Assembly: GCF_001428805.1 (NCBI RefSeq)
Contig: NZ_LMIS01000001.1
Coordinates: 1,050,587 to 1,114,586, forward strand
Origin: Aeromicrobium sp. Root236
GTDB lineage: Bacteria; Actinomycetota; Actinomycetes; Propionibacteriales; Nocardioidaceae
DNA length: 64,000 nt
Direction of reading: 5' to 3'
This document shows positions 1 to 6,468 of the stretch, one piece after another (the stretch's first letter is position 1; every line of letters starts with the position of its first letter). The notes beneath the pieces are model-generated. The model searched no databases, was not told the origin of the DNA, and saw only the letters and a program-made list of their open reading frames with translations. Both the position numbers and the translations under genes were made by a program.

Positions 1-1496
1 CACGAGTCCTTGCCGTCCGAGGTCTCGATCAGCACCCTCGTGACCGCGTCGGTGCCGTGGCCCTGGTCGAGGATGCGTACGCGGAAGTCGATCAGGTGGA
101 AGCGGGCGACATCGGGATAGACCTGCTCGATCGCCTGACGCAGCGCATGGTCGAGCGCGTTGACCGGACCGTTGCCCTCGCCGATCACGGCGAGGCGCAC
201 TCCCCCGGCGACGAGCTTGACCGTCGCCTCGGCGACGGCGTCGTCACCGCGCGCGGACTCGGCCAGGACCCGCCAAGACTCGACGTCGAAGTACGAAGGC
301 CGCGCCCCGTCCATCTCCTCGGCGAGCAGTAGCTCGAACGACGCGTCAGCGGCCTCGAACGTGTAGCCGGACTGCTCCATCGCCTTGACCCGGTCGGTGA
401 CCCGGGCGAGTCGGGCCGGGTCGTCGGCCAGGTCGAAGCCCAGCTCCTTGCCCTTGAGCTCGATCGTGGCGCGACCGGCCATCTCCGACACGAGGAGACG
501 CATGTCGTTGCCGACCAGTGCCGGGTCGATGTGCTGGTAGAGGTTGGGGTCGACGCGGATCGCGCTGGCGTGCAGCCCCGCCTTGTGGGCGAACGCCGAG
601 ACGCCCGTGTAGGGCTGGCGGGCCGAGGGCGGGTAGTTCGTGATCTCCGCGATCGCGTGCGAGATCCGCGACGCGTCGGCGAGGGCGCCCTCAGGCAGCA
701 CGGTCATGCCGAGCTTGAGCTCGAGGTTGGCGACGCACGTGATGAGGTCGGCGTTGCCCGTGCGTTCGCCGTAGCCGTTGACGCAGCCCTGCACGTGCGT
801 CACACCGGCCTGGACCGCGGCCATCGAGTTGGCGACGGCGCATCCGGTGTCGTTGTGTGCGTGGATGCCGAGGCGTACGCCCGTGGTGGCGACGTCCGTG
901 ACGATCTCGGTGACCCAGTGCGGCAGCATGCCGCCGTTGGTGTCGCACAGGATGACGACCTCGGCGCCGGCGTCACCCGCGGCGCGTACGACCTCGAGTG
1001 CGTAGTCGCGGTTGGCGCGGTAGCCGTCGAAGAAGTGCTCGAGGTCGACGAACACCCGCTGCCCCTCCTCGCGGAGGTAGGTCACGGTGTCGCGCACCAT
1101 CGCGAGGTTCTCCTCGAGCGTGGTGCGCAGCGCCTCGGTGACGTGGCGGTCGTGGCTCTTGGCGACCAGTGTCACGACCGACGCACCCGAGTCGCGGAGC
1201 GCCTGGATCAGCGGATCCTCCGATGCCTGGACCCCGGCCCGCCGCGTGGCGCCGAACGCCGCGAGCGTCGCGTGCTTGAGGTCGAGCTCCTTGGCCGCCA
1301 GGGCGAAGAACTCGGTGTCCTTGGGGTTGGAGCCGGGCCAGCCGCCCTCGATGTAGCCCACGCCGAGGTCGTCGAGGTGACGAGCGATGTGCATCTTGTC
1401 CTGCACGGAGAGGTTGAGGCCCTCCTGCTGGGCGCCGTCTCGCATCGTCGTGTCATAGACGTGGAAGTCGCTCACGCTCTGGTGTCCTGCGTTCAC
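1..1496 (-). CDS. cimA: Citramalate synthase (C-terminus off the left edge)
   Basis: Condenses pyruvate with acetyl-CoA to citramalate, the entry step of the threonine-independent route to 2-oxobutyrate and isoleucine. About 498 codons are visible; the last few dozen residues and the stop lie outside. The HMGL-like TIM barrel starts with DTTMRDGAQQEG, then shows IHAHNDTG (metal site) and NGYGERTGNADL, with a LeuA-type dimerisation domain toward the C-terminus. The DTTMRDG and NGYGERTGNA blocks favour CimA over LeuA (family knowledge). GTG at 1496 follows AAGGA with 7 nt spacing; GTG at 1475 is an in-frame alternative. The gene lies behind an isoleucine-rich leader peptide and a terminator, so attenuation by charged tRNA-Ile is likely. 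Confidence 0.93.
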   Translation of the reverse strand, partial: MNAGHQSVSDFHVYDTTMRDGAQQEGLNLSVQDKMHIARHLDDLGVGYIEGGWPGSNPKDTEFFALAAKELDLKHATLAAFGATRRAGVQASEDPLIQALRDSGASVVTLVAKSHDRHVTEALRTTLEENLAMVRDTVTYLREEGQRVFVDLEHFFDGYRANRDYALEVVRAAGDAGAEVVILCDTNGGMLPHWVTEIVTDVATTGVRLGIHAHNDTGCAVANSMAAVQAGVTHVQGCVNGYGERTGNADLITCVANLELKLGMTVLPEGALADASRISHAIAEITNYPPSARQPYTGVSAFAHKAGLHASAIRVDPNLYQHIDPALVGNDMRLLVSEMAGRATIELKGKELGFDLADDPARLARVTDRVKAMEQSGYTFEAADASFELLLAEEMDGARPSYFDVESWRVLAESARGDDAVAEATVKLVAGGVRLAVIGEGNGPVNALDHALRQAIEQVYPDVARFHLIDFRVRILDQGHGTDAVTRVLIETSDGKDS

Positions 1497-1545: not shown

Positions 1546-1588
1546 AAAAAAGCCCCCCAGGATATGGGAGGCAGCGCGTCGGGGGCTT
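1546..1588 (-). terminator. Intrinsic terminator of the cimA attenuator
   Basis: On the minus strand AAGCCCCC (1588-1581) pairs with GGGGGCTT (1557-1550), closing a 23-nt loop, and runs into six consecutive T. It lies between the Ile leader peptide and the cimA start, where an attenuator terminator belongs. CGCGC in the loop can pair with GCGCG in the last leader codons, a possible antiterminator (inference). Confidence 0.85.
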
Positions 1589-1592
1589 GGTG

Positions 1593-1637
1593 TCAGTGCC
1601 CGGCGCGCCTGTCGATAATGATCGAGATGCTCTGCAT
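1593..1637 (-). CDS. Leader peptide of cimA with isoleucine control codons
   Basis: A 14-codon frame read MQSISIIIDRRAGH ends 5 nt before the terminator hairpin. Four of five consecutive codons (ATC TCG ATC ATT ATC) are isoleucine, the end product of the CimA branch. A -10 box TAGACT lies 7 nt upstream of the ATG and no Shine-Dalgarno is visible, so the peptide is probably translated from a leaderless transcript. In the classical attenuation model, ribosome stalling at the Ile codons would prevent the downstream terminator from forming. The mechanism is inferred; codons, hairpin and T-run are seen directly. Confidence 0.85.
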   Translation of the reverse strand: MQSISIIIDRRAGH

Positions 1638-1644
1638 GCGGCTC

Positions 1645-1654
1645 AGTCTAGACT
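1645..1654. promoter_or_regulatory. Palindromic shared -10 element for divergent transcripts
   Basis: AGTCTAGACT reads TAGACT on both strands. On the minus strand it lies 7 nt before the cimA leader ATG (1637); on the plus strand 9 nt before the ATG at 1664. Both transcripts could start at or near their start codons from one 10-bp palindrome. No good -35 hexamer is visible on either side. Confidence 0.6.
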
Positions 1655-1663
1655 GATCGACCT

Positions 1664-2359
1664 ATGACCGCCAGACCCGTCCCGCTCGACGTGGAGCCGA
1701 CCGTCATGTACGCCGTGATGACTCCGGACCCGTTGGAGTCCGAGGACCTGATCCCGCCACCCTCCCCCGAGCTGCTGCGTCACTACGGCTCGTCAGAGGT
1801 GGCAATGCGCCGGCTGAGGTCACGCCACCACCAGCGGCTCATCCTGCGCCGGACGAGCCTCGAGGACGCCGCCTTCACGATCCGCGACGCGCGCATCGAC
1901 GCGTTGCTGCTGGCCGAGGAGCACGACGGCGTCGTCATCGACCTCGGCATCCCCCGCGTCGTCGAGGGTCGCTCCGACGAGGTCTCCCTCGCACACGCCA
2001 CCCAGTGGTACACGGTCGACTACGAGGCGCTCGGCGAGGGCCGGGTCCGCACCGTCGGGCTCGCGTCGTTCGGCTTGCCCGAGATCGTGCTCGACGGCGT
2101 CGACGAGTCCTCCCACGCGATGTACACCGCAGTGCTCGCCGGGCTCGTCCACCGGCTCCTCGCGGAGTGGCCGGCCAACGACCCGGTCGGCCGCGCCACG
2201 GTGACCCTGCGCGACATCGCGTACGGGCTCGGCGACGCGGAGGCGGCGTCGACGCCCAAGGGCCGGTCGATCGACGTCGACATCGCGTACGACGCCGACG
2301 ACCACCTGCTTCTCGTCACGCTCGACGGCGACCCCGCCGAGTCGCTGTTCGCCCCCTGA
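1664..2359 (+). CDS. Hypothetical protein, 231 aa
   Basis: I do not recognise this family. It reads as a soluble, acidic protein without signal peptide or membrane segment, and its codon use matches its neighbours (C or G at most third positions), which supports a real gene. A proline-rich stretch (IPPPSPELL) near residue 30 precedes an Arg/His-rich segment around residues 49-61 and a mixed alpha/beta remainder. It diverges from the cimA leader across a shared -10 palindrome and converges on aspA with 2 bp between stops. The ATG at 1664 is 9 nt after TAGACT, fitting a near-leaderless transcript. Confidence 0.7.
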   Translation: MTARPVPLDVEPTVMYAVMTPDPLESEDLIPPPSPELLRHYGSSEVAMRRLRSRHHQRLILRRTSLEDAAFTIRDARIDALLLAEEHDGVVIDLGIPRVVEGRSDEVSLAHATQWYTVDYEALGEGRVRTVGLASFGLPEIVLDGVDESSHAMYTAVLAGLVHRLLAEWPANDPVGRATVTLRDIAYGLGDAEAASTPKGRSIDVDIAYDADDHLLLVTLDGDPAESLFAP

Positions 2360-5061: not shown

Positions 5062-6120
5062 TTAACCGACCGCTACGCCCTCGGCCACACGTGAAGCTAT
5101 GGCCCCTCCCACCTCCTCCGTGCTGCGCGGTGCCGCGCCTCGTTCGGCGATGTCGGCCTCGACCGCGGAGCTGATGCGGGCCGCCGCCTCCGGCAGGCCG
5201 AGGTGCTCGAGCAGGAGGGCGCCGGACAGGATCGCGGCCGTCGGGTCGGCCTTGTGCTGACCCGCGATGTCGGGGGCCGAGCCGTGGACCGGCTCGAACA
5301 TGCTGGGGGCCGTACGGTCGGGGTTGACGTTGCCGCTGGCGGCCAGGCCGATGCCTCCGGTGATCGCCGCGGCGAGGTCCGTGAGGATGTCGCCGAAGAG
5401 GTTGTCGGTGACGATGACGTCGAACCGCGCCGGATCCGTGACGAGGAAGATCGTCGCGGCGTCGACATGGAGGTAGTCGACCGCGACGTCCGGGAACTCG
5501 GCCGCGACGGCGTCGACCGTGCGCGTCCAGAGGTGACCGGCGTGCACGAGCACGTTGTTCTTGTGGACGAGCGTCAGCTTCTTGCGCGGACGGGCCTGAG
5601 CGCGGGCGAAGGCGTCGCGGACGACGCGCTCGACGCCGTAGGCGGTGTTGATGCTGACCTCGGTCGCGAGCTCATGGGGCGTGCCGACGCGGATCGCACC
5701 GCCGTTGCCGACGTAGGGGCCTTCGGTGCCCTCGCGGACGACGACGAAGTCGATCGCACCGGGATCGGCGAGCGGTGTGGCAACGCCAGGGAAGAGCTTG
5801 GACGGGCGCAGGTTGACGTAGTGGTCGAGGGCGAACCGCAGCTTGAGGAGCAGGCCGCGCTCGAGGACGCCGGAGGGCACGCTCGGGTCACCGACGGCGC
5901 CGAGCAGGATCGCATCATGGCCCCGGATCTCCTCCAGGACCGAGTCGGGCAGGGTCTCCCCCGTGGCGTGCCAGCGCTTGGCACCGAGGTCGTACTCGGT
6001 GCTGCTGAACGAGGCGTCGTGATCGGCGGCGACGAGGTTGAGGACCTGGAGCGCCTGTGCGGTCACTTCGGGTCCGATGCCGTCTCCGGGCACCACTGCG
6101 AGGGAAAACGAGCGAGTCAT
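5062..6120 (-). CDS. leuB: 3-isopropylmalate dehydrogenase
   Basis: NAD-dependent oxidative decarboxylase of 3-isopropylmalate in leucine synthesis; in the citramalate route LeuB also oxidises 3-methylmalate, which fits the nearby cimA. It is 352 aa from ATG 6120 and shows PGDGIGPEV at the N-terminus, [13 protein letters not shown], the metal/NAD loop [15 protein letters not shown] and [17 protein letters not shown] 6120 lies 7 nt after a TAGAAT box, suggesting a leaderless proximal start; an ATG at 6129 is in frame. Further upstream are a 31-aa small ORF, a long-range RNA stem and a leader peptide rich in Leu/Val/Ile codons. Confidence 0.95.
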
Positions 6121-6127
6121 GAGCGTC

Positions 6128-6133
6128 ATTCTA
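6128..6133 (-). promoter_or_regulatory. Proximal leuB -10 box
   Basis: TAGAAT on the minus strand ends 7 nt before ATG 6120, the spacing seen for other apparently leaderless genes here. It would give leuB a basal promoter independent of the leader at 6497. The -35 is weak. Confidence 0.45.
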
Positions 6134-6177
6134 GGCAGGCAAGTCTCAGGATATGAAACCTGCGTCTTGGTATGTGG

Positions 6178-6273
6178 TCAGTTGTCGTCGGGTCGTTCGG
6201 ACGACTCGAGCTCGGGGGTCGAGGCCTCGTCGCGCAGGTGCGCGGGGCCCCACTCCATCAGTCGGGGTTCCAT
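6178..6273 (-). CDS. Small ORF of 31 aa in the leuB leader
   Basis: The frame starts with MEPRLMEWGPAHLRDEA and ends after an acidic tail. It has the best Shine-Dalgarno of the region, AAGGAG 6 nt before the ATG, and ends 57 bp before leuB. It has no membrane segment and I do not recognise it. Because it lies between the BCAA-codon leader peptide and leuB, it may be a conserved small protein of the leu operon or a second translated leader element. Its reality rests on the ribosome binding site and regular codon use. Confidence 0.5.
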   Translation of the reverse strand: MEPRLMEWGPAHLRDEASTPELESSERPDDN

Positions 6274-6318
6274 GGCGATCTCCTTCGGTGTCGGACGTGG
6301 TGCGGGTCCGGTGCGGGT

Positions 6319-6416
6319 CCGCCGTTCCACCAGACACGTGTCCGGAGATCATCCGAGGAGAGTACGAAAAGTGTGCGATCAGATCGTGATCAAGCACCCC
6401 TGCGGCGGAACGGCGG
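6319..6416 (-). promoter_or_regulatory. Long-range stem in the leuB leader RNA
   Basis: CCGCCGTTCC (plus strand 6319-6328) is the exact reverse complement of GGAACGGCGG (6407-6416), allowing a 10-bp stem across 78 nt downstream of the leader peptide. Within it lie GATCAGATCGTGATC (dyad with 5-bp arms) and ACACGTGT. It could be the alternative fold of the regulatory leader. No U-tailed terminator is seen. Confidence 0.45.
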
Positions 6417-6431
6417 GCCAACGCCGAAACT

Positions 6432-6468
6432 CCGCGGCAGGGTGTAGCCCTAAGAGGCCCTGCCGCGG
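6432..6468 (-). promoter_or_regulatory. 11-bp hairpin overlapping the leuB leader peptide
   Basis: CCGCGGCAGGG (6432-6442) and CCCTGCCGCGG (6458-6468) are perfect complements with a 15-nt loop. On the minus-strand RNA the 5-prime arm starts about one codon after the L-V-V-I control codons, so a ribosome stalled there would cover it. No T-run follows, so it is not a simple terminator. An antiterminator, anti-antiterminator or pseudoknot stem similar in idea to the actinobacterial LEU element is possible. Confidence 0.6.

Follow-up and report, generated by a model that had tools for sequence, protein, structure and literature searches.

In the ilvGMEDA and thr leaders of Escherichia coli, the position of the ribosome on codons for branched-chain amino acids, or for Thr and Ile, decides whether transcription terminates; these leaders operate by strand exchange between three segments and serve other target genes, cimA not being one of them. 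The closest tested case to the element described here is the ilvBNC attenuator of Corynebacterium glutamicum (ilvL, a 'fast attenuator'), which has mutational support (PMC11857589). It shares with the cimA element a near-leaderless leader peptide, an antiterminator adjacent to the terminator and an intrinsic terminator, and at the boundary its antiterminator and terminator have a GCC in common; its control codons are mixed (Ile/Val/Leu) and three hairpins are reported (PMC11857589), whereas at cimA the control codons are Ile and two hairpins are conserved. The ilvB1NC attenuator of Mycobacterium tuberculosis likewise combines a short upstream ORF with an antiterminator and a terminator in the leader, but its control codons are LVVI and its target is ilvB1 (PMC13236596). 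Other actinobacterial ilvB and leuS attenuators, ilvL and leuL2 of Streptomyces lividans among them, also consist of a leader peptide and a terminator (PMC1262725, PMC8079986), and ilvB and leuS leaders are among the matches of the covariance model R1 used below; the S. lividans ilvL peptide, MRTRILVLGKRVG (PMC8079986), resembles LLIIGRRAG.

The actinobacterial survey of Seliverstov in 2005 dealt with ilvB, leuS, leuA, trp and cys, reported seeing no conserved structures for other pathways and contains no occurrence of cimA (PMC1262725). The S. lividans attenuators of 2021 do not include cimA, and the main text of that paper does not contain citramalate synthase (PMC8079986). One report counts against the attenuator reading: exchanging codons of the ilvB leader in S. 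coelicolor was reportedly without effect, as cited in PMC1262725. Our own literature search, with subscription papers mostly outside its coverage, returned no attenuator at cimA and none at an actinomycete ilvA, in line with the first-pass annotation of this DNA, which had considered a cimA attenuator to be undescribed. The type of attenuator is already known for other genes; what is new in the literature searched is cimA as the target of what is very probably a switch.

The leader upstream of cimA in Aeromicrobium

The window, that is, the whole stretch of DNA analysed, comprises 64,000 nt of Aeromicrobium sp. Root236; nearest relatives and taxonomy agree that it is Aeromicrobium DNA. The features of the locus, in window coordinates, are as follows.

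1..1496, minus strand: cimA, citramalate synthase (TIGR00977 match), the putative regulated gene; extends beyond the window edge
1546..1551, minus strand: U tract of six U, the predicted termination point; TTTTTT directly after P2, 50 nt before cimA
1552..1572, minus strand: terminator hairpin P2, GCCUCCC-AUAUCCU-GGGGGGC, from sequence, consensus fold and covariation
1569..1610, minus strand: hairpin P1, candidate antiterminator; arms 1610-1599 and 1583-1569
1593..1637, minus strand: leader peptide ORF, MQSISIIIDRRAGH and stop; ATG at 1637, 14 codons, stop TGA at 1595-1593; conserved in Aeromicrobium relatives
1614..1622, minus strand: control codons Ile-Ile-Ile; ATC 1622-1620, ATT 1619-1617, ATC 1616-1614
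1628-1626, minus strand: further leader Ile codon, ATC, upstream of the Ile-Ile-Ile run
1645..1654, no strand assigned: palindrome AGTCTAGACT with a -10-like TAGACT on both strands, the minus-strand copy at 1650-1645; putative promoter

The gene, which encodes the enzyme of the first committed step in one Ile pathway, starts at GTG 1496 (alternative 1475) with AAGGA upstream, and its product scores 660.8 bits against the TIGR00977 citramalate synthase model (cut-off 450). A 14-codon peptide with an Ile-Ser-Ile-Ile-Ile run, and a hairpin with six T between it and cimA, had been proposed in the first-pass annotation; both are present, as the minus-strand ORF 1637-1593 and as the hairpin 1572-1552 followed by TTTTTT at 1551-1546. 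The upstream neighbour of cimA is a divergent ORF (1664-2359, plus strand), and since this is transcribed away, the terminator can act on the cimA transcript only. The divergent ORF encodes 231 aa, has a start that is conserved in close relatives and is without any Pfam match.

The perfect palindrome AGTCTAGACT occurs once in the 64 kb, with 0.01 copies expected, and is kept together with its TAGACT in most Aeromicrobium. The TAGACT box lies only 7 nt from the leader ATG, which implies a leaderless leader mRNA; the spacing resembles that in S. lividans ilvL and leuL, for which leaderless leader transcripts have been described (PMC8079986). The palindrome lies between two start codons, that of the cimA leader at a distance of 7 nt and that of the divergent ORF (ATG) at 9 nt, and it is possible that it constitutes a bidirectional leaderless promoter. 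In two Aeromicrobium genomes (G022 and G099), the attenuator has been cleanly lost: the GTG start codon of cimA comes about 7 nt past TAGACT, and cimA would itself be leaderless there with the putative promoter in the same position.

Conservation of the leader and its rare control codons

We tested for an in-frame Ile-Ile with a stop within 8 codons and a terminator 20-90 nt further on. Such an ORF and terminator lie ahead of cimA in 69 of 104 genomes spread evenly over the Actinomycetes, whereas, when the full set of 104 was dinucleotide-shuffled 20 times over, 19 rounds gave zero passes and the other gave one (mean 0.05); the occurrence of an Ile-Ile leader with a terminator before cimA is not chance. 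With other doubled residues, the same test was passed by 0-9 genomes (Leu-Leu 2, Val-Val 5) and, for Arg-Arg, by 27, a score that reflects the RRAG segment, which encodes the P1 5' arm. This is a strict test, and the covariance model detects cimA elements in additional genomes, for example G005. Among 80 named relatives of cimA, nearly all have an Ile-containing leader in the equivalent position, and its stop is followed at about 40 nt by a T run. Outside the class, an Ile-run leader with a terminator at cimA was found in 2 of 40 genomes, both from one family; these two leaders end in RIIIIR (G257) and FIIIP (G225), each followed by the stop.

The leader takes the form xSISIIIDRRAGH in Aeromicrobium, TIIIx and stop in Nocardioides, and MFYGLLIIGRRAG and stop in Streptosporangiales. 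Strictly Ile-only control codons are a property of Aeromicrobium and many Nocardioides; other lineages have Leu or Val directly upstream of the Ile run (LLII in Streptosporangiales, for instance), and 90 of 149 leaders carry Leu or Val codons within a four-residue stretch that has the final Ile as its last member, a point against the attenuator reading given below. The conserved Ile codons that the first-pass annotation suggested looking for in Nocardioidaceae exist there and in most of the families sampled. Its description of the leader as Ile-specific holds for the enriched Ile-Ile pair (the 69 genomes) but has to be relaxed for the lineages with upstream Leu or Val. A Fisher test on the Ile share of cimA and ilvB runs was set aside as biased, because the cimA rows had been chosen for Ile-Ile.

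In 144 of 149 leaders, the final pair of Ile codons includes one or two ATT; within cimA itself, in the 80 named relatives, this codon accounts for 9 of 1008 Ile codons (0.9%). Of the Ile codons earlier in the leader, 64 of 68 are ATC and 4 are ATT, and the other leader codons are mostly GC-ending, which rules out general AT-richness as the source of the ATT excess. ATT and ATC share one tRNA for Ile. The ilvB leaders show a comparable habit, as the rare Val codon GTA is present in 29 of 29 and makes up 13 of 1231 Val codons (about 1%) in the ilvB genes; CTT and ATT are likewise enriched in these leaders. GUA has been named as a regulatory codon for ilvB1NC of M. tuberculosis (PMC13236596), and an influence of control-codon choice on sensitivity is discussed theoretically in PMC1183508.

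Two conserved hairpins and a predicted switch

Between the Ile codons and P2, almost every sequence compared contains the hairpin P1, with a near-constant GCGC/GCGC base and an upper part that varies while its pairing is retained. In an alignment of 52 diverse sequences, 92.8% of the cells of the P1 and P2 helices are paired, and 100 cells have changed on both sides, compared with 6-17 for slid-partner controls. Covariation of the hairpin in Nocardioidaceae cimA leaders had been put forward as a check on the first-pass annotation, and it holds for that family and for most others sampled in the class. Of the two hairpins, that annotation recognised the terminator but not the conserved P1, which, placed between Ile codons and terminator, is likely to be the switch. 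Compared with shuffles, the 95-nt cimA leader has the better fold (z -3.1); the 54-nt terminator part by itself does not (z -0.7), and the case for an attenuator hence rests on conservation. Of 147 sequences, 109 have the start of P1 4-6 nt past the last Ile codon and 124 have its end 0-2 nt ahead of P2, while the leader stop codon varies in position from just ahead of P1 to within it. This succession of P1, P2 at 0-2 nt and U tract is the ilvB-type layout; the mixed Ile/Leu/Val codons and the downstream ilvB of that type are absent from the cimA element. Two other pairings were considered and discarded. GGUCUGC (the Gly-Leu-Leu codons) with GCAGACC (the terminator base) in Streptosporangiales is not a general antiterminator, as Actinomadura has the terminator without the leader half, and AAGCCCCC, just upstream of 1583, is not conserved in Aeromicrobium as a partner of the terminator 3' arm.

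We consider it very likely that the cimA leader works as a ribosome-mediated transcription attenuator and ties expression of the gene, at the level of transcription, to charged tRNA-Ile. Its end-product codon run and intrinsic terminator are seen in the sequence, and a ribosome-gated second structure is predicted by folding. Conservation, covariation, the ATT bias, the divergent neighbour and the separate mixed-codon leaders of ilvB speak for this reading. Transcription would begin at or beside the leader ATG. When Ile is plentiful, the ribosome would clear the Ile codons, reach the stop and mask the 5' arm of P1; with P1 blocked, P2 would form and RNA polymerase would halt at 1551-1546. When Ile is scarce, the ribosome would wait at the Ile codons, P1 would fold right ahead of it and the adjacent terminator would fail. 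In the window, the P1 base (AGGC:GCCU) uses 4 nt (GCCU, 1572-1569) of the P2 5' arm, and P1 formation would remove them from the P2 stem. In most other lineages, P1 merely abuts P2 and would have to stop the P2 base from closing; the zero-nt junction suggests that it does so within the polymerase exit channel.

To model the ribosome, we folded only the uncovered RNA, counting as covered everything up to 12 nt from the first base of the A-site codon. P1 is predicted to form in 114 of 147 sequences when the A site holds the first Ile codon, in 20 of 147 when it holds the last Ile codon, and in 0 of 147 when it holds the stop codon. The difference between the first Ile codon and the stop indicates that P1 is gated by Ile supply, as an antiterminator requires. 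The equilibrium probability of P2 is about 0.88 in every ribosome state over the 147 sequences, which speaks against strand exclusion in most lineages, and competition for bases does not appear to explain the switch outside Aeromicrobium. It is conceivable, if rather doubtful, that further pairings make P1 and P2 compete for bases, and exclude each other, in every lineage. The GCCU common to both in the window would fit, as would the model for C. glutamicum ilvBNC, which relies on a common GCC trinucleotide (PMC11857589), but the P1-P2 gap is exactly 0 nt in 99 of 147 sequences and the probability of P2 does not drop when P1 can form. We regard it as unlikely that P1 is a pause hairpin synchronising polymerase and ribosome, with some other structure acting as the switch. 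Pause hairpins do occur in trp/his-type leaders and P1 sits right after the control codons, as this reading would have it; P1 also abuts the terminator, however, and the consensus fold showed no other conserved alternative structure.

Two readings without attenuation carry much less weight than the ribosome-mediated attenuator. Conservation of the peptide within Aeromicrobium could point to a functional small protein with an incidental terminator, but across families the peptide retains only its Ile codons and differs in length, in flanks and in the position of its stop, and the RNA helices covary, which makes such a protein highly improbable. We give practically no credence to a T-box or metabolite riboswitch controlling cimA, despite the T-boxes of actinobacterial ileS (PMC1262725): a search of Rfam gave no match to the leader at the gathering threshold, a T-box included, and otherwise brought up just two sRNA families, both unrelated and with E above 1, and the transcript ahead of P1 is about 30 nt long and coding.

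Sister attenuators and the isoleucine branch

In the host genome, R1 has a single significant match, the cimA leader site (70.1 bits); the host ilvB leader scores 13 bits only. Across 44 genomes of the class, the best matches lie ahead of cimA in 31 genomes and the weaker ones ahead of ilvB or leuS, with ilvB leaders matched in many genomes. Of 30 genomes from the cimA comparison, 29 also carry an ilvB leader with mixed Ile/Leu/Val codons (runs such as ILVL, ILVV and LLVV), and none of the ilvB leaders listed has two adjacent Ile. The cimA version is thus matched to its pathway, and with its Ile run and cimA downstream it is a sister element rather than an ilvB attenuator. The host ilvB has its own leader peptide ahead of its own terminator, which bears out the contrast drawn in the first-pass annotation between an Ile-only leader at cimA and a mixed one at ilvB. 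A mixed leader that had also been claimed for leuB could not be recovered: the leuB region of the window (6090-6460) has no ORF rich in branched-chain codons with a terminator, and no R1 match. Leu-rich leaders, mostly with triple Leu and with the P1-P2 layout, precede long ORFs at several loci (L267, L268, L271, L272, L274 and L276-L278), and the two downstream ORFs tested are leuS. To our knowledge, Leu-rich leaders of the leuS type have so far been known mainly from Streptomyces.

One family (f17) has a different arrangement. The element is absent from 8 of 8 of its cimA genes, and on its contigs 15 of 15 best R1 matches are beside a threonine ammonia-lyase-like (ilvA-type) gene, which they precede, with leaders (14 readable) that end in MAIT, MVIT or MGIT or contain MII. 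Where checked, the proteins score under the TIGR01127 cut-off, and 'ilvA-like' is therefore the safe name. Control of the Ile branch has apparently moved in this family from cimA to the ilvA-like gene. The ilvA of the host genome scores above the TIGR01127 cut-off and is without an R1 match.

We tentatively propose that Actinomycetes may possess one attenuator family at cimA, ilvB, leuS and, in one family, the ilvA-like gene, in which a ribosome-gated hairpin adjoining the terminator prevents closure of the terminator base without strand exchange, the control run being re-coded for each gene and tuned by rare synonymous last codons. The mode of antitermination in actinobacterial attenuators, disputed for ilvB, becomes testable: a single genome offers a natural pair of sister attenuators with different control codons, ilvB for the shared enzyme and cimA for the Ile branch, and further natural contrasts are provided by the control on the ilvA-like gene in f17 and the loss in two Aeromicrobium. 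The finding may help producers of Ile or of citramalate-derived chemicals. For the organisms themselves, the citramalate route to Ile gains a predicted end-product control over most of the Actinomycetes families sampled.
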